From a virus, in the IMG/VR virus record IMGVR_UViG_3300011113_000127, positions 1-35,621 of that record: a DNA stretch of 35,621 bases. One strand, given 5' to 3'. The translations under genes and the position numbers were made by a program. Each line of letters starts with the position of its first letter. Position 1 is the stretch's first letter. The notes beneath the pieces were generated by a model. That model was not told the DNA's origin and did not search any database. It was given only the letters and a program-made list of their open reading frames with translations. Of this stretch, positions 2,424 through 29,553 are shown piece by piece.

Positions 2424-2894
2424 ATGGGTTTAGATATGTATTTAACTGCCAAGAGATATCTTTGGTCTGACAAGGACAAAGAGATCGCAAAGGATATCAA
2501 TGATGCAGTAGGTGTGGAGTTTAATCCTGAGAAACGATTTGTTGGTTCAAGCATGATGGTCAAAGAAGTATCTATTGATGCCATGTATTGGAGAAAGGCA
2601 AACGCTATCCATGGGTGGTTTGTGGAGAAATGCCAAGGGGGTAGGGATGAATGCCAAGAGACCTATGTTCCAAGGGAGAAACTGGTGGAGTTGCGGGATT
2701 TGTGCAAGAGCATTCTTGACAATCCTGATGCTACTGGAGATGCGGATTTAGAGCCGACAGAGGGATTCTTTTTTGGGTCATACGAAAAAGATGAATGGTA
2801 TTACCAAGACTTAAAGAACACTGTCGAGGGCATTACCAATGCATTGTCGTTGCCTGAACATAAATACGAGTTTTACTATCAAGCCAGTTGGTAA
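2424..2894 (+). CDS. Phage protein with MGLDMYL N-terminus, 156 aa
   Basis: The start has AGGAG 6 bases upstream, inside the extended SD element. The product starts MGLDMYLTAKRYLW, a signature I recognise from many phage and prophage proteins of unknown function. Further conserved-looking parts are the segment IDAMYWRKANAIHGWFVEKC, a histidine/tryptophan-rich core typical of that family, and a C-terminal half ending EFYYQASW, also usual. Families with this N-terminus are sometimes labelled as a kinase in databases, which nothing in this sequence supports. There is no membrane segment. The next gene's SD begins right at its stop, so the operon continues. Confidence 0.75.
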   Translation: MGLDMYLTAKRYLWSDKDKEIAKDINDAVGVEFNPEKRFVGSSMMVKEVSIDAMYWRKANAIHGWFVEKCQGGRDECQETYVPREKLVELRDLCKSILDNPDATGDADLEPTEGFFFGSYEKDEWYYQDLKNTVEGITNALSLPEHKYEFYYQASW

Positions 2895-2905
2895 AGGAGA
2901 TAAAT

Positions 2906-3178
2906 ATGCAGAACATTTGTGAAGATGGGTATCAAGGAAATCATGATCCAGTATCGGATGATCTTGAAGTGCAAATGAGCACTGAGGTATTAGACGATAA
3001 ATCGGTTGTGGTTAATTTTGATGTCTTTGATAACGATCAAGGGTGCGTTGTCAAAATGGGTGGATATGTCATGGTCAAACAAGATGATGAGGGAAAGTGT
3101 TTTTCTGTCTTGGTATTTGATGCAGATGGCAATATCCAATCAGAAACCCATGTGCCATTTAACTTTCAGGAGTGCTAA
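2906..3178 (+). CDS. Hypothetical acidic beta-rich protein, 90 aa
   Basis: ATG at 2906 has AAGGAG 7 bases upstream; the longer frame starting at a TTG would overlap the previous gene. The product is strongly acidic with alternating beta strands (SVVVNFDVFDNDQGCVVKMG, GYVMVKQDDEGKCFSVLVFD). It ends FQEC, and these last codons contain the AGGAG for the next gene, the same junction type (AGGAGTGCTAAT-ATGG) seen at 1400-1416. No family is recognised. Confidence 0.65.
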   Translation: MQNICEDGYQGNHDPVSDDLEVQMSTEVLDDKSVVVNFDVFDNDQGCVVKMGGYVMVKQDDEGKCFSVLVFDADGNIQSETHVPFNFQEC

Positions 3179-3607: not shown

Positions 3608-3755
3608 TTTAGTTGATGAAGTAATCGAACAAATCAGGAGTGATGTTGCGGTAGGTGATATGACTGCCATTGAGGAATTCTTAATAATTGCTTTATTTTA
3701 TGTGCCTGAAAAATACTTAATTGCTTACTTATCTGAGGAAAAACAAAATGCCTAA
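3600..3755 (+). CDS. Small acidic helical protein, 51 aa
   Basis: The ATGCCTAA start overlaps the previous stop by 8 bases; a longer frame to 3573 would overlap the previous gene far more. The product begins MPNLVDEVIEQIRSDVAVGD and continues with a helical hydrophobic segment (EEFLIIALFYVPEKYLIAYL). The hydrophobic stretch is broken by Pro and charged residues and is more likely a buried helix than a membrane span. It ends QNA, overlapping the next start by 8 bases. No family recognised. Confidence 0.55.
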   Translation: MPNLVDEVIEQIRSDVAVGDMTAIEEFLIIALFYVPEKYLIAYLSEEKQNA

Positions 3756-4392
3756 TTGGTGCGATAACACTGTGTATATAACCCATGATGATCCCAAGAA
3801 GATTCAGGTTCTTGTGGATGCGTGGAAAGCAAACAAATTCTTTGGAACTATTTATCCTGAGCCTGACTACACCAAAGTTAAGGTCAAACCAACATTCCCG
3901 CAAATCACGGGGAATGACGATCCAGTTAGCGTTGAATCAGCATGGTGGGACTGGCGGGTTCAGAACTGGGGAACAAAGTGGGAGATCACAACGGATGAAG
4001 CCTACATTGATATTCAGGAAAATGAGATAAAAGCATCATTCGCTACTGCGTGGTCTCCGCCTACGGGCATTTTTGACAAACTGGTAGAGGATGGGTATGG
4101 GGTCAATGCTCTTTACTACGAGGGTGGTTGTGCATTTTGCGGTGAGTATGTAAATGGTTCAGATGAGACCTATGACATTAGCGGTAAGTGGATGGATGTC
4201 AAAAACAATATCCCAGAAAACATTGACCTTGAGTTTAGCATCAGCGAGAGCATGAAAGAATGGGCTATGCAAGAACTGGCTGATGAAATTGAGGAACTGG
4301 AACAGTCTTTGTCAGAGGATAAAGACAATCACGAAACGATTGCCCAGTTGATCGCCAAGAAAAAAGAACTTGAGGAGATGGAAGATGCCTAA
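3748..4392 (+). CDS. Api92/YubB-like ferredoxin-fold protein, 214 aa
   Basis: The N-terminus MPNWCDNTVYIT, the middle segment WWDWRVQNWGTKWEI and the later ATAWSPPTGIFDKLVEDGYGV match the layout of a phage/plasmid family with a ferredoxin-like fold (Api92-like, YubB, DUF1281 C-terminal domain), known for MPNWCxN, NWGTKW and W(S/R)PP motifs. The ALYYEGGCAFCGEYVNG segment also fits. The length (about 200) is usual; the C-terminal 45 residues are an acidic coiled coil ending EMEDA. The family is common in phages, plasmids and integrative elements and has no proven function. The start is fixed by the ATGCCTAA overlap with the preceding stop. Confidence 0.8.
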   Translation: MPNWCDNTVYITHDDPKKIQVLVDAWKANKFFGTIYPEPDYTKVKVKPTFPQITGNDDPVSVESAWWDWRVQNWGTKWEITTDEAYIDIQENEIKASFATAWSPPTGIFDKLVEDGYGVNALYYEGGCAFCGEYVNGSDETYDISGKWMDVKNNIPENIDLEFSISESMKEWAMQELADEIEELEQSLSEDKDNHETIAQLIAKKKELEEMEDA

Positions 4393-15000: not shown

Positions 15001-15065
15001 TGAAGATGCCGCAGCAATGTGGCTTCTTCACGTTTTGGGGGGCTTAGAACACCCCCCCTTTTTTT
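15001..15065 (+). terminator. rusA terminator with a preceding hairpin
   Basis: GGGGGG (15037-15042) pairs with CCCCCC (15052-15058) and is followed by seven T (15059-15065). Just upstream TGAAGA-GCC/GGC-TCTTCA forms another hairpin (15001-15030, one mismatch). The T run is shared with the stop codon of the convergent giant gene; in that direction no T run follows the hairpin. Confidence 0.85.
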
Positions 15066-18000
15066 ACAGCCCAGAGTCTAAGCGCATCTGGATAATTCCC
15101 TCTAGCAGCTCCTGCTTAGAACGCTGTAAATCCGTGATCTCCTCTCTACGTTGATCAGGCGTGAAGCGCTTGTCCTTTACCTCACCAGTTATGCGAATCT
15201 GGCGGTTTAGGTCACGCAAGGCTACTTCCATGCCAGTCACATAGTCACGGGCAGAAATCAGGTCAGCATGCTTATTAAAGTACTTGTCAGCCTCATCTGC
15301 CTTATCACGCTCTAAGAGCTTCATATAGGTCTCGTACTTGTTATCGACCATCTTCTTAAAGTCGTAGAACAATTCCTCGTTACCACGGGCTACATCAGGG
15401 GCAACAAATGAGCCATACAGTGGGTTCTGTCTGGTTGTAGCGCTTGGGCGGTCTTCTCCAAACATATTGGATAGCCACTGAACAGCAGAGCCAGTCGTTC
15501 CAAACAAACCACGAACTAGGTGATCTGCCTCGATTGGATTCAGAACACGCTTATTTTCCGTAAATGGAATGCCAGTCAAAGCACTGATAACCTTGCCAAG
15601 CTGGGAAGTCGATGCGGTGTATTGCTCCACAGCGTCTAAGTCTTCCATACCCTTGGGAGTTACTGTTCCACCAGTAAAGAAGTTACGATTTAAAGTAATT
15701 TCTACAAATGGTTTAACACCTGTTGAGATTAGGTTTGGACCAAGCAAGGAGTCAAATGCAGCTTCACGCAGAGCAGTCCGTAGTCGTGTGCCATCCATCT
15801 CATTTTCAGTTCCCTGTGTGGTTACATAGTTGTAAGTTAGCTCAGGGATAGACTTAAACATGAAGCTGGCAGAGGTGTGCATTGGGATAAGGATGTTGTT
15901 ATCCAAGCCAGTCCAGTTTTTTGATAGGAAGATATTGCGAACTTTGGTTTGGTCATCGAGCTTCTGATACTCATCGTCATCACCAACAGCCATGCTGTAA
16001 AGCATTACATAGAAGCCAAAGGTAGCTCCAGTCTTAGCCAGCTGTGCTAAAGCAGCGCCACGGGCTTTGCCAGTCAAGCGTTTGCCAACTAAGGACATCG
16101 CCAAGATATCAATCTGCTGAGCGTATGCGTTCATAAACGATACAGTCTTGGTCAAGAACTGGGCGTGTCTAGCGCTACCACGCTTGAGGAAGTCGATTAC
16201 GTTGTTGGCTTGAAGCAACGCAAGCATCTCATCGCCAGTCTGTCTGAGGGTATTGTTATATACCGACACACGCTGTCCGTAGTCTGAGGCATCGCCTACA
16301 CGATCTAGCAGACCCATCAAGGCATCAAACTTGTTCTTTTCCATTAAACCGATCTGTTGCTTGTACTCAATCTCTGGGGTACGGGTATAGGACTGATATC
16401 CACCAATACCATAGGACTTGAGCATATCGACTACAGGATCATCAGATTGCAAGGCTTTAATGAAGCCACGGAATGTGCCAGCCCAGACCCTAGTTGGATC
16501 TTTTAATCCAGTGACCAAAGCTGCGGTAGGCGCATCCATGAACAGCTGACGGATCTGGAACTGAGGCCATAAGGTAACGCCTCTGCGTAAGCCATTTGCC
16601 AAGGCTGCAAGCATATCCATGGCTGGCATGCTGATATTCTCCATGCCTATTACAGACTCAGCAATCAACGGATCTTTGATCTCAATAACGATTCTGCGAC
16701 CATTAACAAGAATGTTGGTGCGAACTGCTCCTTCTGGGGTACGACCTTCCTCTGGGAATACAGCAATCTGTCCCTTCTTATTACGGGTAGCGTACTCCTG
16801 TGCCACACGATTGGCAGCGTAGTTACGCATGGAGTTACGGGTAATCATGGCTACGTTGTGGAGCATGTTATCCACGATGTCATCAATATCCTTAACGACT
16901 ACAGTATCCTCAAAGCGCTTCTCCTTGCCGACATTGGTTAGACGTTTCACGCCACCCATTTGTGAGGCTTGGTGTAGGTCTTCCATGTCATCCTGGATGC
17001 GATACCAAGGCACATAGTCCTTAATGCCTTTAAGCTGTTTAGCTCTTTTCTCGCTAATAATCTTGCCAAACAACATCATATCAATCATGTTGGAGTTGAC
17101 TTGAGTCCAGTTATCGAGCATGGTGCGCAGCTCTGGATTTGTTTTTTCCAAATCGCCATAAAACTTGATCTGCTCTTCGTCAAAGCGAACTTTCTTCTTG
17201 GCGATGTTAATCATCCGCAAGCCTTTCTCAGCTTGAAGGATCTCATCTAACAGCAAAGCCTGACGAGCAGCCGAGGTTCTTGGATCACGCATCTCGTTGT
17301 TTAGGTCTTGGAGTTCTTTCTCTCTAGCCTTGAACTCATCCATGATGCTCTTAGAGCGCTTGGCTTCAAAGAATGTATTAATCATGTCAGTAGCCCGTTG
17401 CAAGCCTATACGCTCAATCAGATCATGCTTAGCCATTAACACATTAGCCATGGAGAATGGGCGTCTAATAGCTTGGAACATCTGGGTTTTGGCGTTAAAC
17501 GCCAGCGCACCACGGATAATGACCTCAGAGGCAATATGACCAGCATGCAAGGCGTTAGTAACGGCAATAGAGGCAATAGCTCTCATTTCGCCATCACGCA
17601 ACATACCCTCTAAACCTCTGGCTTTTTGCAACGCCAAATCAGCCATCTCTAAACCAGCACCATACCAAATATTCTTATTGCGAACAGAAGTTATGGCACG
17701 GACAATTTTTCCACCCATAGCCTGTGAAGCCATCAGAGGAGCATCTTTGGCATCTCTGTAGACTTGTCTTGCACCTCTAAATCCACCAAGCAACATATCC
17801 TTAACGCCACGGCTAGGCTTAACTGGGGTATGGTTTAAACCATCCTCTTGGAACTTCTTATCAAAGTCTTCTACGTTATTAAGAAACTTAAGTGCGTCTG
17901 CGTTATCAATGACATATTCAACCAGCATCGTATTTGTAATGCGTTGTTGATCGCCAGACATAATACGGGCAAACTCACGATGAATGGCTCTTTTGTTATC

Positions 18001-21000
18001 AAATCCTAGGATATCTTTAATTGTTTCCAACAGGCGCTGCATTGCTTTCTTAAATTTCTGCCAGCCACCGCCTAGCTGTGCCTTGAGTAATGGTTCAGCA
18101 TTAACCGCCCAGTACTCTGATGGGTTGATGAACTGGTATAGCTTATGATCTGGAAGGGCGTTAGTAGCTTTTCTGTAATTTTCTTCTGTTGGCTTCTGTA
18201 GATAATCAAACACCGCCTCAAAGTAGTCTTGTGATACTTGATCTGTATTGTCTTCAATCGCCTTTTGTAAAGCGTCAGCCCATGCATTGACTACCGCAGT
18301 CTGCGCCTCTGGAGTCATCATCTGCTCCATGGAGTGGGCAATCTCATGGCGCATGGTCTTGTCTTTTGGTAAAGGACCAATAATGTCAAAACTCTTATAT
18401 ATTGTTACAAGACGTTTTACAGGCTCAAAATTACCAGACACGCCAGTCACTTTAGGTTGTTGAATTGATAATGACAGACCATCTAAAACTGCTGGATAGC
18501 GTGTAGCAAGGGCATCAACAACCCTGTATGTATCGTTATCTATGTTATCAGCTGCTAATTCAGCAGCGGCTTTAGCTCTAAACCATTCCGCTGTCTTGCG
18601 AGGTGGCTTGGTTTTGGCTATCTCTTTATTGATCTCTTTCTTTGCTTGCTCAAGGAATGTAAGCTCACGCTGGATATTGATGCCAATGTTGCCCTTAATG
18701 ATCTGGCGTTTGATAGCAGATATGCCACGGCTTAACTCAGCGCTGCGCTTAATCTTTTCAGCCCTAATCTCATCTCTGCGAGTGTCAATCTCTTTTTTGG
18801 TAATGCCAGTAAATTCCTCTAGCGTTGTCTTGGGAGCAAACATCTTACGAGCTTGTTCTTGGCGGGTAATTGCTTTAAAGAACTGCTCTTTCTCTTTCAT
18901 CAGGTAATCCATCGCTTTCACAAACTCAGATGGATCACGGGTGTAATTCAGCATGGATGAGCCACGCTTGTAGAAATCTCTGTTGCCTAGGGCATCAGTC
19001 AAATTCTTATCGAGGAAGTAATCGCCACCAGAGCGCTTGTTTGATGGCACTTCTATCATATATGTATCGCCACGCTTGGTAATCCGTATGACGTTGTCAT
19101 CGCTGGCAATAACACCACCTAGCTCATCAAGGAAACGCAGCATGTCCTGTGGATTCTTAATGCGCACATCGGCTTGCTTCTTCTCACGCTCAAAGTCAAA
19201 CTGGCGGGATAGAAGGATACCCTGTCCTGTTGTGCCATCGTTCTTGGTGTAAGTAAGGATCTGACCAGGATAGGTTGCAAATCCAGCCAGGATGTTGCCA
19301 GTAATCATCCAGCGTTTCTCACGCCTGACGGTTGCACCCTTATCAAAGATATCAATGATTGGGATGTATTCGCCTTGCTGGGTCTCTGGGTTGAGGTAGT
19401 TGACTACCGACTCTTTTTCCAGCGTATAGTTCGTGCCGATCTGCGAGAAGTTGAGAGTCAGGCTTCTGGAGTCACCGTTGGCTACAGCCAGCGTCATCTT
19501 CCAGTCTGATCCAGAGGCTGGGTTAGCCGTACGCTTGACGTTCTTGATATCGGTAATCATGCCGTAGACATATACGCCATTCTTATCTTTGATTGTGACT
19601 GGATCACCAATCTGAAGGTTTTGTAAGACAGAACGGATCTGCCCAGCCATGAGGCGTTGTCTACCTTGCTGCTCATCTATCTTGATGGGATCAGTCTCTT
19701 TCTCCTTGAGATCTGCCATCTTCTTGTTGAAGTATTCGTTCTCACGCTGATCGAACTCGTCAATAAAGTCCTTGGCGATCTGCTGCTTGGTCTTGCCATC
19801 AAGGTTCTTTTGAACCAGATCACGGACTTCTTGGCTGCTGTAGGGCTGAACTGTGCGGTTAACTTCTACACGCTCCATGTAAGCGGGAGCAGAGAAAATA
19901 GAATCCTCACCCTTGTCCTCAGTAATTGGCTCTATGGCTAATGTCTCAGCCTCTAAGTCAAAAGCCTTCGCCTCTAACTTGTTGCTTCCCATACTGTTCT
20001 CACGCTCCAGCAATTCGTTGTAGCGGTCAATCAAGTCAGAATAAACTTCTTCCTGTTGGGATAGTGGAAGGATTGGAATATAGCCAGTAAACCTACGGAT
20101 GTCGGCTTCAAGCGCTTCGTTGGTATCCTCAGAAATCGCCAGCATCTTGTCACCACCCAGTGCCTCATGGATCTCTGGGTTATCACGCAGATACTCTTGG
20201 GCTACCTGACCACCGTAGTCATTCATAAAGTCGACCACGCCCTCAGCAGTAACGGCTGACTTACGGGATGCTGTGGTGTTGGCGTTGAGCGATGCCATCT
20301 TCTTGAGCAGTACGGCAGCTGGGCGCATCTCTGCTGGAATATCAGCCATCATCTGTGAGTAGGATGGGGTAATTACTTGACCAGTCCTGTGAACACGACC
20401 CAACATCTGCATGTGGGTATCGATGTTCTTCTCAGGCTGAACAATAATCATGTGGCGTTTTTTCTTATCCTTAAACTCCTTCTTGGCATGCAGAGACAAG
20501 CCAGTAGAACCTGCCTGATTCAGGATGATGACATCGGTTTCGCCACTGTTAAAGTTGCGCACCGCATTAACACGCTGCTTGATATTGGCTGATCTGCTGG
20601 TAAGGATAGGCTCGCCAGTAGCGTAGTTCAGGGTAATCGTGCGCCCTGTAATCTCATCGGTCTTATAGCCAGCCTTACGCAACTCGTTGTGCATGTAGTC
20701 GATAGGCGAGATTGGGGCTGAGCCAAAGCCAGAGTTTTGGATTTGCTCACGAATCTGGTTGTATCGTGCAACCAGAGTCGGACCAAGCTCTTCATCGGTT
20801 AATCTGCGCTTTGTCTTTTTGCCATCAGGAGCTTTGATGGTAATCATGCGCTGCTTATCTAGGTAGCGGACATATAGATCTGCAAAGGATAGATCGACCT
20901 TGTCACCGACCTCAATTCCCATATCCTCGGCATAGTTCTGTAAAAACGAGCCCATGGTGTTGGATACGGTCATTACTACCTTCTCACCAGCCTTGAGACG

Positions 21001-24000
21001 GTTGATAGCGTGACTGACAGATTCTTTAGCCTTCAATGACAAGAGCATCTGGTCAATCAGGTTGTGCATAACAGAGCCAAAGTTAGCACCTTGGACTGTT
21101 GTTTTCTCACCACCAAACTCAGCGACCTTCTTGGCTTCTTTATCAAATTGCTTCTGCATCTGCTTTAAAACAACATCTTTGCTGCGGGAGAACGCTAGGA
21201 TGTCACGCATGGCGGTTGCCATGTTCTCAGCGGTCTGCTTGTCTACTGGAGTGTCTACAGTGTTGTATGCCACACCAGCAAAGGTTCTTTCTCTACGGAT
21301 ATATTGACCATCCTTGGTCAGCATGGTTGCCACAATCTGTTGCATTGGCACACCACCACGCTTGATGGCTTCTGCCAGCTCTGCGGGTTTGTCTACTGCC
21401 AGCATCATGTTTGTGCTGGAATACAGATCCATCACATCTGGGCGCTTAGCGTAGGTAGCCGATGAGAAGAATGTGCCAAAGGCATTACGTACCAGATTGC
21501 GTACGAATCCAGCACGACCAGTGGTAAGGCTCTCGCCCTTCTTGGCAGCCTCTTTCTGATCCTTAGTCCTTGCTTGAGTTTCACCAGCGCCACCAGCGTT
21601 GTGCGACTCATCAAAGATCATGTAGTTGCCTAGGCCAAAACTGCTAATAAAGTTCTGGCGTTCTGTGGCTTTTCCCTTGACGTTCTGGAGCTGGCTATAG
21701 GTAGTAAAGATTACCTTGTAATCGCCAAGGCTTTCCTTATTACGCATCTCTTCCATCATGCCATCGAGCGCTTTACCAGTCTTAGGAGCTTTCAAAGTCA
21801 GGTTGATTTCCTCAATCTGATCGCCTTTCTTGCGGAGAAGCTGATAGGGAATGGATTCGCCACCGTTGGTGATAAATATCTTAGGCTTGGTTGTATCTAG
21901 TCCAAGCTCTTTGGTCATGCCGATATCGTCTAGATCTCGGATCATGTCGGAATATAGGTTTGGCTTCTCGGTAACAAAGATCGGGATCTTGTCGTTGCGC
22001 AAAGCGTAACGAATCATTGCAGCCACTACACGACCTTTACCAATACCAGTCTGGTCTCCAATGATGAAGCCCTTACCAGCCTCAGCGTTACGGATGGATA
22101 AGGCTAGAGCATCAATCTGTTCTGCGGAGAAGTCCTCACGCAGTGTCTCAATATCCATGCTCAGACTGTCTGCAACATACTCATCAATGTTGCCCATTTG
22201 ATCTTCGACCTTCTCAAGCGATTGCTGAATCGAATCACGCATCGCCCGTGGCACTAGCGTACCAACGGATGTAGCCTGAGAGCTTGGCTCGTAGGTAGCC
22301 TGTTGCTCGGTCTCGACCTCTTCGCCTCTGCGCTCTACGAGTCCAGACTTGACTCGCTCACCTGAGACAACGCTAGGTCCACCCAGTCCGCTAGGTTTAC
22401 GTTCTTCAGGGACTCTTCTGCCAGTAGGTTCGACTCCTTCACCTCTTGGAATGGGTTCTCCTTCAACTCTGCCACGTTCAGATACGTCAGTAGGTTTAGG
22501 TTGTTCTGCACGAGGTTCTGCCCTAACTCCGCTGGGTTCTCCACCAGTGGTAGGTCTAGCAGCCGACACGCCTGTAGGCTCGCCTCCTCTGGGTTCTCTT
22601 CGTTCTGTGCCAGCTGGCTCACTCGGTCTGACAGCGCCTCGACCCACTGCTTGTGGTTCACCTTCCCTAGTGGCAGCCTCACCGAGGTCAGCTCTGGCGG
22701 GGCGCTCAGCCCCTCTGGATACCATGCGACTAGCTTCATCTAGCTTCTCCTTTAATTGCTCATATGAGCTATATATTTTTGGAAGATCAGAAGTAGGTAA
22801 TTCTCTTTCTGATTTACCATCACCATTAATCACAATGACATCTACAGGGTATGCAGCCCCCTGTTTCTTATATAAATCACCAGCCACGGTGAAATGGTCT
22901 ACTACGTTGTATTTGTTGTAGAGATTAAAATAAAAATTACGTTTGGCTGGAGAGCGATACCCCTCTCTTCTGCCATCTTCGTTTTGTGCAAGAACACCGC
23001 CAACGATTAAAACAGCCTTACCATTTGTTGGCTTCATGTTCTGTAAAGACTTCATTACGATGGCATGGTCTATTTCTCTGGTTTTAAACCCGTCAACATC
23101 AAAGTTTTCTCCAGTAGATCCAAACGGAGGATTCTCAATAACAACGTCTACTAAAATTGCTTCTTGTTTTAAAGCATTACCAATAGTAACTTCAGCTTTA
23201 GGGAAAACCCGTTTGAGCATTTCAGCACGGGTAGCGTTTAGTTCATTAACTGTAACGCTGTTAGGGTTAGCTCCAATTAGAAGCATCCCGTTACCAGCAG
23301 TCGGTTCATAAACAGTATTGTTTTGATTAATTCCAGCTAATTGGCTGGCAACATACGCTAATGGAGCTGGGGTAGAGTAAGCCTGTTCTCTAACGCTGGT
23401 AGAGGTACGGACTGCTAAATTAGGCTGGCGATTATATAAACTTATCAAATCATCATAGATCTGATCTGGTTTCTTATTGCTTTGCACAATATCACGAGCA
23501 GTCAATACGATGCCTACCTCAACGGCTTCGTCTGCCTCTTTTGCCTGTGCAGTGCCAGGTTCTATCTTCTGACCTGTAATGTTGGTAATAAACTTACGGG
23601 CTTCGATAATGTCCTTAAATCCGTTGCCATCCAAAAAGTGCTTAGAGATGTCCTCGGCAATCTTAAACTTGCCACTTGGATCCATCAGATCAACAGCACC
23701 CTCAGTGGTGTCTGGTAATTCAGCCTTTTGGACTTGCTCGTAGGTATCCATGTCATCTACCAATGACTTGGCAGAGGGGTCATCACGGACAGCGTTGTAC
23801 CACTGTTTGAGGTATGGCTTAACTTTATCGCCCAAATCAGCAATCATTGCCTTAGCGTAAGCTGCAAAGGTACGAGCACCCTTCTCAATGTGATAGCCAG
23901 ACAGGGTAATACCATCAATCAGGAACTCTGGATCTATGCCTGAGTTCAGACGATTGAGCTTGGAGCGTAAGCGGTTACGAGCTTTGGTCGCTGCATCCTC

Positions 24001-26955
24001 AGTAAATATCTTATTGGGCGTGACCTGAATAGCTGGTGCTTCTTCTTTCTTTGGCAACTCGACTACTGTTTTAGGAGGCTGCAAGAAAGCTGTGAGCTTT
24101 TTCATATCATCAGATCCAGCAAACGGACGGAATGATGATGTAATACCAGCTTCGTTAGCCTCTTTTGAAACAAATACCTTGCCGTTTTTTTGATTTATTA
24201 ATCCAGCTTTTTCTAACTTATTAAGTAATGGCTTTGCAGAATCCTTATAGCTTAAACCGTTACCAGCCAGGACTATCTGAGCGGCAGCATTTATTTCATC
24301 AATATTAAATTCTTGAGGAATAATTTTGCGAACTGGTTTAGCAGCTTCCGCAGCTTCTTTCTTTTCAGCCTGACGCTGGCGATTAATCTCTGCTTGAGTT
24401 AAGGTTGGAGTTACTGGCTTTGCACCAGGCTCTCTAATAATTACCTTATTGCTTACTTCGCTTGGCTGGAATCCAAACTTGCCATAGAATTGAGATAACT
24501 GTTCAGCTGTCATCCCGCCTTCTTCAAGCTGGGCTGGCTCACCATAAATTGTGTAGTTGTTCTTATCAGCAACTTCTATCAAATCTTTAATGGCTTGAGT
24601 AGCTTTACCCTGTTTTCGCTGATCTTTATCTACACCAATGAAGTGCCAAGTTATTTGATTTGATTCGCCATAACCTAACATTGGTGAACGATTAGGATAA
24701 TTTGGATCAGCAAATACAATTTCGCCTGGATTAAGAGCTAGACGAACACCATCTTTTTCAATGGTTCTGTACTTCTTGCCACCCTTAGTTTCATAGGTGC
24801 GTGGATTATCAAAGCCAAGAACTTTGTATCCCTTGTCTGCCATATCAACAAACAATGGGAAGGTTAATTTTTCACCCTCATCATCAGTAACTGCTTTACT
24901 TGGAGCGCCAGATGGCATGCCAAGAGTTTCTTTAACTGTATTTAAAGTTTCTTGTGGCGTTGCACCAATTTCTAAATCTAGTTCTTTAGCAAGTGGATTT
25001 ACATTTCTTGCTGTAACTTTTGTTGGATCTTTCTCAAGCTCCTCTATTGCGCCTCTAATCCTAAATGCTTGCTCCGACTTTAAATCTATTGGTTCCTCGG
25101 CTAGAGCCTCTGCTACCTCTGGCTCACGCACTACTTCTTCGGCAACTGGCTCAGCTACTGGCAACGCCATGAGCTGGTCTGGCGTATAGGCAGCCAACTC
25201 ATCTACGCTAGTGATTAAGCGTGGGCGGTTCTCATCTTGCTCTAGGAAGCCGTAAATCTGTTCGCCATTGGATAGCCGTTGCTCTGCCTCCATGCGAGAT
25301 GCAACAGGCTCGCCACGTTCTTGGATATTGGAAAGCAGTTCTTCATCTACGGGTGGAGCAACTTGGGGGGCAGCATGTGGAGCTTGGATTAACTGGCTAA
25401 TCTCTTGCTGAATTAGGTTCTGGCGCTCATTAAATATCTGTAATTCTTCTTCGGTCAAATTGGGATCGAGCTTGCGTTGCTCAATCATTTGGAATTGACC
25501 CTCTAAGTTTTGAACTTGACTAGCGACTTCTGGTGCTAAGCCAGCGGTCTGCAACAGCATTGGTGTAGGCGTAGGTGCTACTCGTGGTGCTGGTGCTATA
25601 GCCTCTATCTCTGCTTCCTCTATGGTTGCAGATGGAGCAGGTGTAATGGGAGGGGTTACACCTGGGGCAGGAGGAGCTGCTGCGGCTGGAGGAACGCCCT
25701 CACCAAGATCCAAACGCATCTGCGCATCAATATCAGCTTGAGTAGGTGCTTTGGCTGCCTTCTCTGCCTCTTCCTTGGTCTTGGCTACTGCGCCACGGTA
25801 TGCACCTGGACCAGCGCCACCCATTGCACCAAGGACAAAGTTAGCAAAGGACTCTTCGCCAATCTCTTTGATGACGGCTTTGTTGATACCTAGGTCTTTG
25901 GCAATGCCTTCTAGGAACTCTTGTGTACCTTCTTCTGCTGCGCCAGCTGTAGTACCCAGTGCTATACGACCAAGGCGGTTCTTGACTGGACCAGTCATTA
26001 GCTTGTCAAACTGACCAGTAATTAACTTACCAGTAATAACGCTACCAAATGCCGATACAGAGCCTTGTAATTGAGCTGCATACTCTGCTGCTTTATCAGC
26101 AACTACTTGACGGGCTTCTGCTGGATTAACGCCATCTTCAACCATCTTCTTGAAGTATGGGCTGGACTGCATTAACTGTTCATCAGATAGGCTAGAAACA
26201 TATTTCTGCGCATCTTGTACTGCTTCACCAGCACCCATACCAAAGCCGACTGTACCAACAGCCTTACTGCTTCCTCTGGTTACGACTGCTGTAGTAATGA
26301 TTGGAGCTAGAGAGCCTAAGACCTGAGATCCTTGTAGGGCATAACCCATGAAGGATGGGTTCTTACCAAAGGATAGGTTCTCAACACTGCGATTCTGGAT
26401 AGCCTCTAACAGGTTTCCTTCTACCTGAGAGTCTGCAATAGCCTGTTTACCAGCTGCTGATACGCTTTCACGGAAGCGTTCTGATACTTTCTCTCCTGCA
26501 TCTGCCAACTGAGATAAGCCAGGAATACGAGGCAGTCCAGAGATAGCACGATCTACAGCAATCTGTTCTTGCGTTTGGCGTTCTTGTTGCTTCTCAAAGG
26601 ATTCGCCAGTAGCGCTCTTAATAAACGCCCTAGCGGTATTGGTAAATAGCTGGGCTGGACCCTTCTTGACAAGCTCTTCGGCAAAGGTCATTGGCCCTAC
26701 TTTAGATACAGGAGTAATCCCCTGTTGCTCGACTACTTGGCGGGGGACATTACGGATTGCAGATTCAATACCTAATGGGATGGCTGCGGTAGGACCAACA
26801 GCCCCAGCAGCAATCATCTTGGCTGGATCAAGGATCTGGCTAGGCTCTTCCTCTTGCGGTGTTAGATACTTGGCAAACGGATTTTCGGGAGGCGCTTCAG
26901 CTGGTTGTTCAACGTATTTTGCAAACGGGTTGACGTTCTCAGGCTTAGTCGCCAT
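15064..26955 (-). CDS. Giant polyvalent protein, 3963 aa: GNAT, N6-adenine methyltransferase, strawberry-notch helicase, metallopeptidase-like and LPD38-like parts
   Basis: Order of parts, residues approximate. 1-35: two NPFAKY motifs. 200-400: Gly/Ala-rich helices like ejection proteins. 705-850: GNAT fold (GVDKDQRKQGKAT near 780, FYGKFGFQ). 1190-1370: N6-adenine methyltransferase with EPTAGNG (1217) and catalytic NPPFG (1275). 1408-1555: disordered Arg/Gly/Glu/Pro linker. 1600-2400: strawberry-notch helicase with GDQTGIGKGR (Lys1640), DESH (1782) and QMLGRVHRTGQ (2183-2193). 2870: HEIAH with Glu2947/2954 as possible third zinc ligand. From 3400: LPD38-like RRGVTLWPQFQIRQLF. The methyltransferase-helicase pair resembles P1 DarB, an antirestriction protein packaged in the virion. 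The likely role is injection with the DNA to protect it. Last gene of the virion operon. Confidence 0.87.
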   Translation of the reverse strand: MATKPENVNPFAKYVEQPAEAPPENPFAKYLTPQEEEPSQILDPAKMIAAGAVGPTAAIPLGIESAIRNVPRQVVEQQGITPVSKVGPMTFAEELVKKGPAQLFTNTARAFIKSATGESFEKQQERQTQEQIAVDRAISGLPRIPGLSQLADAGEKVSERFRESVSAAGKQAIADSQVEGNLLEAIQNRSVENLSFGKNPSFMGYALQGSQVLGSLAPIITTAVVTRGSSKAVGTVGFGMGAGEAVQDAQKYVSSLSDEQLMQSSPYFKKMVEDGVNPAEARQVVADKAAEYAAQLQGSVSAFGSVITGKLITGQFDKLMTGPVKNRLGRIALGTTAGAAEEGTQEFLEGIAKDLGINKAVIKEIGEESFANFVLGAMGGAGPGAYRGAVAKTKEEAEKAAKAPTQADIDAQMRLDLGEGVPPAAAAPPAPGVTPPITPAPSATIEEAEIEAIAPAPRVAPTPTPMLLQTAGLAPEVASQVQNLEGQFQMIEQRKLDPNLTEEELQIFNERQNLIQQEISQLIQAPHAAPQVAPPVDEELLSNIQERGEPVASRMEAEQRLSNGEQIYGFLEQDENRPRLITSVDELAAYTPDQLMALPVAEPVAEEVVREPEVAEALAEEPIDLKSEQAFRIRGAIEELEKDPTKVTARNVNPLAKELDLEIGATPQETLNTVKETLGMPSGAPSKAVTDDEGEKLTFPLFVDMADKGYKVLGFDNPRTYETKGGKKYRTIEKDGVRLALNPGEIVFADPNYPNRSPMLGYGESNQITWHFIGVDKDQRKQGKATQAIKDLIEVADKNNYTIYGEPAQLEEGGMTAEQLSQFYGKFGFQPSEVSNKVIIREPGAKPVTPTLTQAEINRQRQAEKKEAAEAAKPVRKIIPQEFNIDEINAAAQIVLAGNGLSYKDSAKPLLNKLEKAGLINQKNGKVFVSKEANEAGITSSFRPFAGSDDMKKLTAFLQPPKTVVELPKKEEAPAIQVTPNKIFTEDAATKARNRLRSKLNRLNSGIDPEFLIDGITLSGYHIEKGARTFAAYAKAMIADLGDKVKPYLKQWYNAVRDDPSAKSLVDDMDTYEQVQKAELPDTTEGAVDLMDPSGKFKIAEDISKHFLDGNGFKDIIEARKFITNITGQKIEPGTAQAKEADEAVEVGIVLTARDIVQSNKKPDQIYDDLISLYNRQPNLAVRTSTSVREQAYSTPAPLAYVASQLAGINQNNTVYEPTAGNGMLLIGANPNSVTVNELNATRAEMLKRVFPKAEVTIGNALKQEAILVDVVIENPPFGSTGENFDVDGFKTREIDHAIVMKSLQNMKPTNGKAVLIVGGVLAQNEDGRREGYRSPAKRNFYFNLYNKYNVVDHFTVAGDLYKKQGAAYPVDVIVINGDGKSERELPTSDLPKIYSSYEQLKEKLDEASRMVSRGAERPARADLGEAATREGEPQAVGRGAVRPSEPAGTERREPRGGEPTGVSAARPTTGGEPSGVRAEPRAEQPKPTDVSERGRVEGEPIPRGEGVEPTGRRVPEERKPSGLGGPSVVSGERVKSGLVERRGEEVETEQQATYEPSSQATSVGTLVPRAMRDSIQQSLEKVEDQMGNIDEYVADSLSMDIETLREDFSAEQIDALALSIRNAEAGKGFIIGDQTGIGKGRVVAAMIRYALRNDKIPIFVTEKPNLYSDMIRDLDDIGMTKELGLDTTKPKIFITNGGESIPYQLLRKKGDQIEEINLTLKAPKTGKALDGMMEEMRNKESLGDYKVIFTTYSQLQNVKGKATERQNFISSFGLGNYMIFDESHNAGGAGETQARTKDQKEAAKKGESLTTGRAGFVRNLVRNAFGTFFSSATYAKRPDVMDLYSSTNMMLAVDKPAELAEAIKRGGVPMQQIVATMLTKDGQYIRRERTFAGVAYNTVDTPVDKQTAENMATAMRDILAFSRSKDVVLKQMQKQFDKEAKKVAEFGGEKTTVQGANFGSVMHNLIDQMLLSLKAKESVSHAINRLKAGEKVVMTVSNTMGSFLQNYAEDMGIEVGDKVDLSFADLYVRYLDKQRMITIKAPDGKKTKRRLTDEELGPTLVARYNQIREQIQNSGFGSAPISPIDYMHNELRKAGYKTDEITGRTITLNYATGEPILTSRSANIKQRVNAVRNFNSGETDVIILNQAGSTGLSLHAKKEFKDKKKRHMIIVQPEKNIDTHMQMLGRVHRTGQVITPSYSQMMADIPAEMRPAAVLLKKMASLNANTTASRKSAVTAEGVVDFMNDYGGQVAQEYLRDNPEIHEALGGDKMLAISEDTNEALEADIRRFTGYIPILPLSQQEEVYSDLIDRYNELLERENSMGSNKLEAKAFDLEAETLAIEPITEDKGEDSIFSAPAYMERVEVNRTVQPYSSQEVRDLVQKNLDGKTKQQIAKDFIDEFDQRENEYFNKKMADLKEKETDPIKIDEQQGRQRLMAGQIRSVLQNLQIGDPVTIKDKNGVYVYGMITDIKNVKRTANPASGSDWKMTLAVANGDSRSLTLNFSQIGTNYTLEKESVVNYLNPETQQGEYIPIIDIFDKGATVRREKRWMITGNILAGFATYPGQILTYTKNDGTTGQGILLSRQFDFEREKKQADVRIKNPQDMLRFLDELGGVIASDDNVIRITKRGDTYMIEVPSNKRSGGDYFLDKNLTDALGNRDFYKRGSSMLNYTRDPSEFVKAMDYLMKEKEQFFKAITRQEQARKMFAPKTTLEEFTGITKKEIDTRRDEIRAEKIKRSAELSRGISAIKRQIIKGNIGINIQRELTFLEQAKKEINKEIAKTKPPRKTAEWFRAKAAAELAADNIDNDTYRVVDALATRYPAVLDGLSLSIQQPKVTGVSGNFEPVKRLVTIYKSFDIIGPLPKDKTMRHEIAHSMEQMMTPEAQTAVVNAWADALQKAIEDNTDQVSQDYFEAVFDYLQKPTEENYRKATNALPDHKLYQFINPSEYWAVNAEPLLKAQLGGGWQKFKKAMQRLLETIKDILGFDNKRAIHREFARIMSGDQQRITNTMLVEYVIDNADALKFLNNVEDFDKKFQEDGLNHTPVKPSRGVKDMLLGGFRGARQVYRDAKDAPLMASQAMGGKIVRAITSVRNKNIWYGAGLEMADLALQKARGLEGMLRDGEMRAIASIAVTNALHAGHIASEVIIRGALAFNAKTQMFQAIRRPFSMANVLMAKHDLIERIGLQRATDMINTFFEAKRSKSIMDEFKAREKELQDLNNEMRDPRTSAARQALLLDEILQAEKGLRMINIAKKKVRFDEEQIKFYGDLEKTNPELRTMLDNWTQVNSNMIDMMLFGKIISEKRAKQLKGIKDYVPWYRIQDDMEDLHQASQMGGVKRLTNVGKEKRFEDTVVVKDIDDIVDNMLHNVAMITRNSMRNYAANRVAQEYATRNKKGQIAVFPEEGRTPEGAVRTNILVNGRRIVIEIKDPLIAESVIGMENISMPAMDMLAALANGLRRGVTLWPQFQIRQLFMDAPTAALVTGLKDPTRVWAGTFRGFIKALQSDDPVVDMLKSYGIGGYQSYTRTPEIEYKQQIGLMEKNKFDALMGLLDRVGDASDYGQRVSVYNNTLRQTGDEMLALLQANNVIDFLKRGSARHAQFLTKTVSFMNAYAQQIDILAMSLVGKRLTGKARGAALAQLAKTGATFGFYVMLYSMAVGDDDEYQKLDDQTKVRNIFLSKNWTGLDNNILIPMHTSASFMFKSIPELTYNYVTTQGTENEMDGTRLRTALREAAFDSLLGPNLISTGVKPFVEITLNRNFFTGGTVTPKGMEDLDAVEQYTASTSQLGKVISALTGIPFTENKRVLNPIEADHLVRGLFGTTGSAVQWLSNMFGEDRPSATTRQNPLYGSFVAPDVARGNEELFYDFKKMVDNKYETYMKLLERDKADEADKYFNKHADLISARDYVTGMEVALRDLNRQIRITGEVKDKRFTPDQRREEITDLQRSKQELLEGIIQMRLDSGL
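22335..22739 (-). CDS. Candidate overprinted gene inside the giant gene's linker, 134 aa
   Basis: In the +1 frame relative to the giant gene, an ATG preceded by AAAGGAG with a 7-base spacer opens a 134-codon frame (MKLVAWYPEGLSAPPELTSV ... ending VSESSLDS). It lies exactly over the Arg/Gly/Glu/Pro-rich disordered linker, where the main frame is under weak constraint. The product is helical, rich in Leu, Asn and Glu, and not low-complexity like the main frame. Against: the opposite strand also shows long open frames here because of base composition, so openness alone proves little. I recognise no family. Confidence 0.32.
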   Translation of the reverse strand: MKLVAWYPEGLSAPPELTSVRLPLGKVNHKQWVEALSDRVSQLAQNEENPEEASLQACRLLDLPLVENPAELGQNLVQNNLNLLTYLNVAELKENPFQEVKESNLLAEESLKNVNLADWVDLALSQVSESSLDS

Positions 26956-26972: not shown

Positions 26973-29123
26973 TTATTTGCCTAGCGCTCTTTGCGCTGCA
27001 CCAGGACCAAATATAGCATCAAATTGAGCTCTTGTTTCAGCAGTATCCATATTTTTTAACTGTTGGACAGCTGCTTTTGGAGGAACTTTAGCAGGTGCAC
27101 CTGGAGGAGGAGTGCCTGGAGCAGGAGCAGTTGGAGCTTGGAAGCCAAGAGTTTCACGCAGTTGTGGTGATAATTCGTTCATTGCAGCGGCACGAGCATC
27201 CCTATTCATAGCGCTAGGATCGTCTTTGTACTTCCTGTAGTTAATACCACCAGGTTTAGCTGTATCTTTTAGATTATCTAAGGCATTGTTAAATAAGCTG
27301 TTATAGGCAGTCTGCGCTCTTGTAAAGTCTAGCTGTTTATTCCTAGATGCAGTTTCTCCACGAGCAGCGGCAGTAGCCTCAGCCGAAGCTCTACGCCCAA
27401 GCATCTGACCAAGGGCAGTCTGTTGAGATCCCAAAAGGGCAGTCTCACGAGCAAACTTAGACTTCTCACGCTCACCAGCCTGTTGCAAGAGTAACTTGTT
27501 CAGATCACTCTGTTCACGCTGAGCCTGTGAATAACTTCTAAGTCCCTCAATACCACCTAGTCCTAGGTTAGATAAGGCGTGTTGAGATGTACCAGCCATT
27601 GTTCCAAGACCAGCCATAGCTAATGCTCGATATGGAGCTGTCTTACGAATGTTTTCTATTTCTGCTCTTGTTTTAGCTTCCTCAGCCTTTGATTCTGCAT
27701 AAGGATCACCCTGTTCTAAAGCCTTTTGCCGTCTCTTAATGTCTTCTAGCATTAAGTCTTCGTAGGCAGCAAACTTGTCTTGAACCTTATTTCCCGTGGC
27801 AAACGCTACAATCCCGCCACCAGCCATTTCTTCTGGAACCATATCGCCTGTAGCAATGCTGGCAATACCAGAACGCAAAGCAGGAGCCATGATCTGATCC
27901 GACTCAGGATTCATAGCCATGCGTCTACGAATCATTAACTGTCTTTCAACCATGTCTACTTCTAAAGGCGTTAGACCTGGATTTTCTAGTAGCGCCTCTA
28001 ACTGGTCAGTAGTCATCGTTTTGATGTCACCGCCAGTAGCATAGGCTAGACCACCTTTTGCCATTTCTTTAATTTGACCGCCCTTAGCCTTAAATCCACC
28101 TGACATGCCATAGATACCAAGGGCAGACATACCTAAGCCGCCAAGCTGTGAGGCTGCACTTGGAGGTGCTGTGTATACCTGTTGGGCGGCTTGAGATAAA
28201 GGAATACCACGAGTCATATCAGACATAAATGCCAATTGCTGATATGGGTAGTTACGCTGCTTGAGGAAGTCCTGATACGCCAAATCCAGACCCTGCTGAG
28301 CCTGAGCTTGCTGAACAGCTCCTACGTTTTGTAGTCCTTGATTAATTGCTTGCTGTTGTCCAAACTGAGTTTGACCAAGCTGACCTAGAGCACCAGCGCC
28401 TTGGAGAGCCTGTCCGTAACCCTGTAGTCCAGCAGTCGTACCAAACTGTTGAGCCTGTTGAGCAGCTTGGAAAGCATTCTGCGTACCAGTGGCTTGAATG
28501 TTAGCCATCTGTTGCTGGAGATTGCGATTGCGTTCTTGCTCAGCCAATACTTGTCTTGCACCACCATAGGTTCCCTGACGGGCAGCACCAAGATTTGCAC
28601 CAATGTTACGCATCTGTGCATCTCGGAACGCTTCATTCTTTTGAACATCAACAACATTCTGCATATAGGGAGACATATAAGCAGCAGTCGCATTTGGATT
28701 AGTAGCCATGTTGCGATAGTCTGCCCCTGCGCCTAATGATCCTAAGCCAGCTGCTCCAGCCATGGCAGTTCCTGCGCCAACCTGACCAGCTACCTGTTGA
28801 TTCGTTATATTTTGGAATGCCCGTTCTTGCGTAGGATTAAACCCAGCAATTCTCTGACCACCATAGGCTTGATAGGGGTTCTGGTTAATGTCTGTAAGAG
28901 CCTCAGACTTACCAAGCATGGTCTCTACATATGGACGAGCATACTCAGGGATAGAGGTTTGAGTAACAGTCTGGCTTGCTGGGGGAGGACTGCCGCCACC
29001 ACCGCCACCGCCCTTACCACCGCCACCACAGATGTATCCACCACCGAGCTTACGCTGGGTGACGCTATCGCCTAGGGGCTCACCAAAGGCTTCTAACTCT
29101 CTACGAGACCAATTCTGTTTCAT
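26973..29123 (-). CDS. Gly/Ala/Gln-rich internal virion (ejection-like) protein, 716 aa
   Basis: The N-terminus has MKQNWSRRELEAFGEPLGDS and a Gly run (about 28-44), followed by the conserved IPEYARPYVETMLGKSEAL. Residues 90-330 are Ala/Gln/Gly-rich helices (AQQAQQFGTTAGLQGYGQAL), typical of ejection proteins. AKGGLAYATGGDIK and AGGGIVAFATGNKV are short Gly motifs I know from virion proteins of aquatic phages. The C-terminal half is a coiled coil (KAEEAKTRAEIENI) and a Pro-rich tail. The likely role is ejection into the host with the DNA. It overlaps the GNAT gene by 23 bases and precedes the giant gene. Confidence 0.75.
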   Translation of the reverse strand: MKQNWSRRELEAFGEPLGDSVTQRKLGGGYICGGGGKGGGGGGGSPPPASQTVTQTSIPEYARPYVETMLGKSEALTDINQNPYQAYGGQRIAGFNPTQERAFQNITNQQVAGQVGAGTAMAGAAGLGSLGAGADYRNMATNPNATAAYMSPYMQNVVDVQKNEAFRDAQMRNIGANLGAARQGTYGGARQVLAEQERNRNLQQQMANIQATGTQNAFQAAQQAQQFGTTAGLQGYGQALQGAGALGQLGQTQFGQQQAINQGLQNVGAVQQAQAQQGLDLAYQDFLKQRNYPYQQLAFMSDMTRGIPLSQAAQQVYTAPPSAASQLGGLGMSALGIYGMSGGFKAKGGQIKEMAKGGLAYATGGDIKTMTTDQLEALLENPGLTPLEVDMVERQLMIRRRMAMNPESDQIMAPALRSGIASIATGDMVPEEMAGGGIVAFATGNKVQDKFAAYEDLMLEDIKRRQKALEQGDPYAESKAEEAKTRAEIENIRKTAPYRALAMAGLGTMAGTSQHALSNLGLGGIEGLRSYSQAQREQSDLNKLLLQQAGEREKSKFARETALLGSQQTALGQMLGRRASAEATAAARGETASRNKQLDFTRAQTAYNSLFNNALDNLKDTAKPGGINYRKYKDDPSAMNRDARAAAMNELSPQLRETLGFQAPTAPAPGTPPPGAPAKVPPKAAVQQLKNMDTAETRAQFDAIFGPGAAQRALGK

Positions 29124-29553
29124 GTTTTACACGCTCCCTAATCCAGCGACAGTCAGCTTTATTCATTTCTAAAACTACCAAATCTCCACCGTCATCATGC
29201 ATACCTTCCAACCGCACAACCTCGGTAAAGCCTAATTTCTTGTCATAATTCATAGCCCTAGTATTAAGACTATTAACTATGGCAATTATCTTTTCTACGC
29301 CTAAATAGTTAAAAGGAAAATCAAACGCTCCAAATAAAAGTCCTTTTGGGGTGTACGACTCTACCAAGTTAATAACGTGCATCTGGCAAGTCTTTCCTAT
29401 AAAAGCCGTAAACCCTACTACCCATTCAATTTTATTCTCTTCATCTACCCAAAACAATGCTTCTAAATCACCGCAAGGTTGCACCCCAACATGTTCAAGC
29501 AATATCTCTGCTGCTCTTTGCTTGGCTTCATATGACTGGGCGCTCTGTAGCAT
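29101..29553 (-). CDS. GNAT-family acetyltransferase-like protein, 150 aa
   Basis: The second half has the GNAT pattern: IIAIVNSLNTRAMNYDKKLG followed by FTEVVRLEGMHDDGGDLVVL and EMNKADCRWI. The order 'N..N..A..ydkKLGF.e...leG' and a closing 'vlem.+..CrWi' is usual for RimJ/RimL-type N-acetyltransferases. The upstream strand segment (EWVVGFTAFIGKTCQMHVIN) fits the central sheet. Such genes are common between virion genes of aquatic phages; the substrate is unknown. It starts directly after the previous stop. Confidence 0.8.
   Translation of the reverse strand: MLQSAQSYEAKQRAAEILLEHVGVQPCGDLEALFWVDEENKIEWVVGFTAFIGKTCQMHVINLVESYTPKGLLFGAFDFPFNYLGVEKIIAIVNSLNTRAMNYDKKLGFTEVVRLEGMHDDGGDLVVLEMNKADCRWIRERVKHETELVS

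Follow-up and report, generated by a model that had tools for sequence, protein, structure and literature searches.

The window, that is, the whole stretch of 35,621 bases analysed here, is a single metagenomic record of an uncultured virus. One gene on its minus strand (15064-26955) encodes an uninterrupted chain of 3963 amino acids with no internal stop, and the coordinates given in the initial annotation, which had claimed it as one gene, proved exact. Full-length homologous ORFs exist in the loci L003, L004 and L005/L007, so an ORF of this size is not due to chance; the giant proteins of L005 and L007 are identical to each other. The product is a phage-type polyvalent protein, a class already known: it unites disparate domains (methylase, helicase, GNAT and LPD38) in a single chain and is located among late and structural phage genes, with genes for a DNA ejection protein, a virion structural protein and tail fibres directly upstream. 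The features of the locus are as follows.

15064-26955, minus strand: whole gene, phage-type polyvalent protein of 3963 aa (ORF, Pfam and PHROG matches, full-length homologues)
15067-17877, minus strand: conserved C-terminal module, residues 3027-3963, with LPD38 at 3660-3846 (above cut-off)
17896-18666, minus strand: putative zincin metallopeptidase region, residues ~2764-3020 (HEIAH at 2870-2874 and NPSEYWAVNAE downstream)
19936-22185, minus strand: strawberry-notch type SF2 helicase/translocase, residues 1591-2340 (AAA_34, Helicase_C_4; 80 related loci)
22636-23388, minus strand: N6-adenine methyltransferase core, residues ~1190-1440, YSTP/EPTAGNG/NPPFG (motifs, phrog_3820, Pfam)
23551-24069, minus strand: conserved region before the methyltransferase, residues 963-1135, at the position of LPD36 in DarB-type proteins (phrog_10089, phrog_938)
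24070-25395, minus strand: variable payload slot, residues 521-962 (identity drop against near relatives, other domains in relatives)
24358-24399, minus strand: recurrent inter-module linker motif TQAEINRQRQAEKK, residues 853-866 (pattern scan)
24427-24897, minus strand: GNAT acetyltransferase cassette, residues ~687-843 (DNA identity to L010/L011, Pfam in seven homologues, dN/dS)
24913-25044, minus strand: small module B, residues 638-681, also exchanged (DNA identity to L004/L005)
25792-26370, minus strand: N-terminal hydrophobic segment, residues ~196-388, putative ejection region (phrog_2206 E 2e-14, tblastn)
26863-26934, minus strand: N-terminal tandem tag, residues 8-31, NPFAKY twice, candidate virion-targeting tag (tandem self-similarity p<0.01)
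26973-29123, minus strand: putative DNA ejection protein, 716 aa (phrog_4287 E 1.5e-19)
29101-29553, minus strand: separate acyl-CoA N-acyltransferase gene, 150 aa, distinct from the cassette (phrog_4470 E 5e-22)

The motifs named in the initial annotation were all located (EPTAGNG at residue 1217, NPPFG at 1275, GDQTGIGKGR at 1633, DESH at 1782 and QMLGRVHRTGQ at 2183), and its assignments of a methyltransferase, a strawberry-notch helicase, LPD38 and a GNAT are supported by Pfam, PHROG and motif evidence. The profile search that it had called for gave matches above the curated Pfam cut-off for AAA_34 (E 2e-21) and Helicase_C_4 (1e-22), which define the helicase as strawberry-notch type, and for LPD38 (75.1 bits against a curated cut-off of 27, E 1e-20). 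The structure prediction that it had also proposed was carried out with AlphaFold on the GNAT (3-sequence alignment, pLDDT 37) and on the peptidase region (5-sequence alignment, pLDDT 49); both models were unusable. A scan of the giant protein against NCBIfam returned no useful match, and blastn with a 4.9-kb piece found nothing among cultured phages. The initial annotation had overlooked the variable slot, the metallopeptidase region with HEIAH and the tandem tag at the N-terminus.

The methylase core matches phrog_3820 (DNA methyltransferase, 1.4e-11) and reaches 18.4 of the 20.4 bits needed for Pfam N6_Mtase, just below the cut-off. YSTP lies upstream of EPTAGNG, and NPPF conforms to NPP(Y/F), as in gamma-class adenine methylases. 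The SF2 helicase is fused C-terminally to the methylase, the DarB-type dyad. The conserved region before the methylase is matched by phrog_10089, a DarB-like antirestriction family, and by phrog_938, and in tblastn it finds DarB-like proteins of cultured phages at 36-60% identity; it stands at the place corresponding to LPD36, a family with a GXG(G/A/S) motif; LPD36 is not among the Pfam matches. Further downstream in the protein, HEIAH or HELTH together with NPSEYWAVNAE is kept across homologues that are 38-93% identical, so that HExxH is accompanied by a downstream Glu, and HExxH occurs at the corresponding position in most relatives. This putative peptidase region fits the zincin-type peptidases of polyvalent proteins.

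Taken alone, the GNAT of the window scores below the curated Pfam cut-off for Acetyltransf_7 (E 3.7e-4, 21.2 of 27 bits). Acetyltransf_7 and Acetyltransf_1 nevertheless both match all seven GNAT homologues, which comprise, besides the window's own, those of four other viral contigs (L010, L011, L029, L030) and two plasmid genes, one of them annotated as "GNAT family N-acetyltransferase". Invariant in the seven are V93, R98, G101, A103, Y142, G146 and F147, which correspond to motif A (V..R..G.A, including the pattern (R/Q)xxGx(G/A)) and motif B (Y...GF). A profile built from the homologues has N-terminal or RimI-type protein acetyltransferases as its top structures (6wqb, E 0.0017; 5isv, E 0.023), and at the level of sequence a GNAT fold is supported. 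Scans of genome contigs for this GNAT revealed no bacterial relatives, and tblastn recovered just the single-domain genes on the two plasmids and one weak phage match. The dN/dS ratio against L010 and L011 is ~0.08-0.10 (dN 0.07-0.08, dS 0.78-0.92), which indicates that the GNAT is kept under purifying selection. The adjoining N-acyltransferase gene (29101-29553) was considered as the source of the cassette and is disfavoured, as it belongs to a different family (phrog_4470).

The GNAT lies in a slot whose contents differ between near relatives. Identity to these is mostly 80-100% outside residues ~521-962 and falls abruptly to 0-60% within. The giants of L003, L004 and L005/L007, which are 77-88% identical to the window protein in amino acids over its C-terminal three-quarters and 79-94% at its N-terminus, are without the GNAT residues and ~170-215 aa shorter. 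The same GNAT is 86-87% identical in amino acids and 83-84% in DNA to those of L010 and L011, over ~460-470 bp with sharp edges; beyond this segment L010 has no DNA match with the window, and the only others in L011 are two stretches of 40-45 bp. Module B is also exchanged, with 97.7% DNA identity to L004/L005 over 132 bp against 84-89% for the backbone. When 58 methylase-helicase proteins, some of them near-duplicates, were scanned with Pfam upstream of the methylase, a GNAT occupied the slot in one, the window's own; the others held InPase, a pyrophosphatase (9), ddrB-ParB, a ParB nuclease (6), ART-PolyVal, an ADP-ribosyltransferase (2), LPD1 (2), PBECR1 (1), SLT (1) or FtsK_gamma (1) where a domain was matched. 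A profile specific for the window-type GNAT found it in none of 80 helicase-bearing loci, a set that takes in the four relatives L003, L004, L005 and L007 and a few loci that end before the slot. In the helicase tree the window is nested among GNAT-free relatives with support 1.0. Gain of the GNAT by a recent single-domain exchange in the lineage of the window is the simplest reading of these data. The initial annotation had judged an acetyltransferase in this place not to be standard, and that stands for this backbone (1/58; 0/80 related loci); it does not stand for polyvalent proteins as a class, in which GNATs are already listed, and the recent insertion into an exchange slot had not been recognised.

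Exchange may not be confined to the slot. Residues 1141-1320 form an allele patch that is 95-96% identical to L004 and 56-68% to L005, and both at the methylase core (22636-23388, minus strand) and at the peptidase region (~17950-18860, minus strand) identity to L004 and to L005 differs sharply. This suggests that these two domains are also mosaic, with further exchange at both. On a larger scale, the C-terminal module is 70% identical to the window in L018/L026, 49% in L029 and 47% in L030, and the middles differ. In L018 and L026 the N-terminal 31 residues are 94% identical to the window and the C-terminal ~940 are 70% identical, and between these ends they carry a different peptidase, LPD1, and a methylase and helicase just 29-34% identical to the window's. 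The C-terminal module and the GNAT recur together in L029 and L030, surrounded there by other domains. The giant ORF at L029:4816-13848 has a GHKL (HATPase_c_3) ATPase domain with the GNAT and LPD38. A YkuD-like L,D-transpeptidase segment stands beside the GNAT in the giant ORF at L030:7121-16030, where the profile match is just below the cut-off, and in that at L011:6377-12958, where it was recognised by sequence motif and has no profile match.

A linker motif, KTQAEINxERQAxKK, is met repeatedly between the modules of giant ORFs that otherwise differ, with three copies in L030. The pattern was found in 17 stretches in 2.9 million viral contigs (IMG/VR), 14 of the 17 in long ORFs of polyvalent type; the scan used a degenerate codon pattern, which in part imposes the conservation seen in the amino acids. 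Some of the linker-bearing ORFs have nothing else in common with the window. Besides the window, the carriers are L003, L005, L009, L011, L026, L029, L030, L033/L039, L034, L038, L040, L041 and L044. The synonymous codons of the linker vary freely, which implies that the constraint acts on the protein and disfavours an origin as a pure DNA scar left by a recombination adaptor.

Of 56 distinct giant ORFs, 27 have significant short tandem motifs at the N-terminus, whereas among 56 internal control windows the number is 2. The N-terminal motifs belong to many unrelated motif types and, in the loci that were checked, are essentially confined to the giant protein. The observation concerns the N-termini of the window (26863-26934, minus strand), L008, L010, L011, L018, L029, L030 and L054-L133. 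In L008 the tag is replaced by WEQDPVV/WDQDPIV and the remainder is 90% identical to the window, and in L018 the 31 N-terminal residues are 94% identical and most of the remaining protein, apart from the C-terminal module, ~30-40%. A tandem tag was not found in SopranoGao, JC1 or Pag-Yong1, the last of which has a record that begins inside the gene, so that the start may be missing. We regard these motifs as candidate packaging or ejection tags, for which the capsid targeting sequence of T4 offers an analogy only. Behind the tag, phrog_2206 (virion RNA polymerase) matches the N-terminal part with E 2e-14, and tblastn with this segment leads to the virion RNA polymerases of ZX86 (4e-4) and Pollock (8e-3). 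Residues ~196-388 thus resemble in sequence the N-termini of N4-type virion RNA polymerases, with a putative role in ejection.

The architecture, the family relation, the slot, the exchange of the cassette and the purifying selection are directly supported, and we infer a way of working in which packaging, ejection, self-cleavage, antirestriction and the target of acetylation are parts. According to the reading that we consider the probable one, with some reserve, the window encodes an anti-defence protein that is delivered by the virion and processes itself, its ends being conserved and its payload exchangeable, and the GNAT was acquired as a cassette of the slot. The giant protein would be packaged in the virion and enter the cell along with the DNA, delivery being served by both ends, the N-terminal tag and hydrophobic ejection segment on one side and the C-terminal LPD38 module on the other. 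Delivery, which the initial annotation had assumed in calling the protein injected, is suggested by the late neighbourhood with an ejection protein and virion proteins, the synteny with SopranoGao and JC1, the N-terminus similar to N4 virion RNA polymerases and the co-ejection of the Dar proteins of P1, which enter with the DNA (PMC12810830). The metallopeptidase may then cleave the chain into working pieces, as the conserved HExxH region and the peptidase precedent in polyvalent proteins (PMC5512222) would suggest, and the DarB-like adenine methylase and the strawberry-notch translocase would act on the incoming DNA and shield it against restriction. Soon after entry the GNAT could acetylate a protein of the host, adding a further means of counter-defence or take-over; AcrVA5 acetylates Cas12a (PMC9114340), so a GNAT can serve counter-defence. 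The cassette would have entered the slot between the N-terminus and the methylase, where related phages hold other effectors.

Other explanations for the GNAT have to be weighed against this one. Phage Mu Mom is a DNA-modifying protein with a GNAT fold, and in a similar way the GNAT of the window might work on DNA with the methylase and the translocase and modify the bases of the incoming genome, which would suit its position directly N-terminal to both in the same chain. We hold this to be very unlikely, since the same GNAT occurs in giants in which neither a methylase nor a helicase was detected (L010, L029, L030), and is therefore independent of both, and since its profile matches are protein N-acetyltransferases and the GNATs of polyvalent proteins have been placed in a RimI-like clade (Iyer et al., PMC5512222). 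It is rather unlikely, and less so than a role on DNA, that the GNAT serves the programme of the phage itself, acting on its own internal proteins, a small molecule or a toxin. Acyl transfer does seem a recurrent need, given that the late operon includes a separate N-acyltransferase gene (29101-29553) and that SopranoGao and JC1 have one too; however, the cassette is dispensable, as near relatives lack it, and it is replaced by effector-type domains, which variable host targets would fit better.

An artefact, in which metagenome assembly had fused the GNAT segment to the ORF, is extremely improbable. The window is a single metagenomic record and the insert is missing from all near relatives, which speaks for a chimera, but the frame is intact at both junctions, the edges fall in inter-module linkers, the cassette is ~84% identical to its closest copies rather than near-identical, and the GNAT is present in five independent contigs with five architectures. 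As regards the giants in general, we consider it unlikely that they form a payload system similar to polymorphic toxins, in which swappable tags and the C-terminal module would deliver, single effectors would be swapped in the slot before the methylase, and KTQAEINxERQA would be a cleavage or recognition site through which the metallopeptidase releases them.

The near-isogenic backbones show that single effector domains can be exchanged within a phage protein of ~4000 residues that is probably injected. The slot between the N-terminus and the methylase is therefore a place to seek new anti-defence enzymes, its occupants being candidate effectors, and the linker and the N-terminal tandem motifs offer testable handles on the packaging and processing of giants.

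Much of this architecture has precedents. For polyvalent proteins the methylase-helicase pair, strawberry-notch versions, GNATs, metallopeptidases and LPD38 have all been described (Iyer et al. 2017, PMC5512222), and the window protein resembles them in being large and multi-domain, in its late locus and in its methylase-helicase, zincin-type peptidase, GNAT and LPD38. In the same work zincin-type peptidases are the commonest polyvalent-protein domain, the independent accretion of GNATs is stated and recombinational variability is suggested for another subset of these proteins (PMC5512222). Under its GNAT panel 4D that paper cites WP_020485828.1, a strawberry-notch ATPase protein of Methylomonas whose GNAT is deduced from the panel letter (PMC5512222). 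The words linker, tandem and targeting signal are not used in its main text. What the window adds, and what is new here, is the exchange of a single domain between near-isogenic backbones at a defined slot, the rarity of this GNAT placement (1/58), and the linker and tandem tags.

Among cultured phages, the DarB-like giants of the Lessievirus/Lastavirus group (JC1, CSP3, SopranoGao, Bcep22 type) are about 4400-4500 aa long (PMC10269572), and their loci, like the window, combine virion proteins, a solo N-acetyltransferase and a giant gene with the conserved pre-methylase region, methylase and helicase; the N-acetyltransferase gene stands in a similar order in the SopranoGao and JC1 loci. Sequence similarity to the window is, however, limited to short stretches, and the Burkholderia-type giants are annotated with an N-terminal transglycosylase and a HepA-type helicase, whereas the helicase of the window is of strawberry-notch type and is accompanied by a GNAT. 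DarB of phage P1 also has a methylase followed by an SF2 helicase, in 2255 aa as opposed to 3963 (PMC11109961). The mechanism of DarB is undefined, and antirestriction by plasmid-borne darB is an effect of the DNA sequence for which the protein is not needed (PMC11109961).

The contig of L005 carries a terminase, a portal and a major head protein, and its terminase and portal are closest to those of the Pelagibacter phages HTVC023P/HTVC027P, of phage DSL-LC04, of phage 023Pt_psg01 and of the Planktothrix phage Pag-Yong1. The giant of L010 (ddrB-ParB, GNAT, HELLH, ART-PolyVal, LPD38) has the same GNAT as the window (87% in amino acids, 83% in DNA) and differs from it in that a methylase-helicase was not detected; its combination of GNAT and ART agrees with the published description of a phage GNAT family that is usually found next to an ART domain (PMC5512222).
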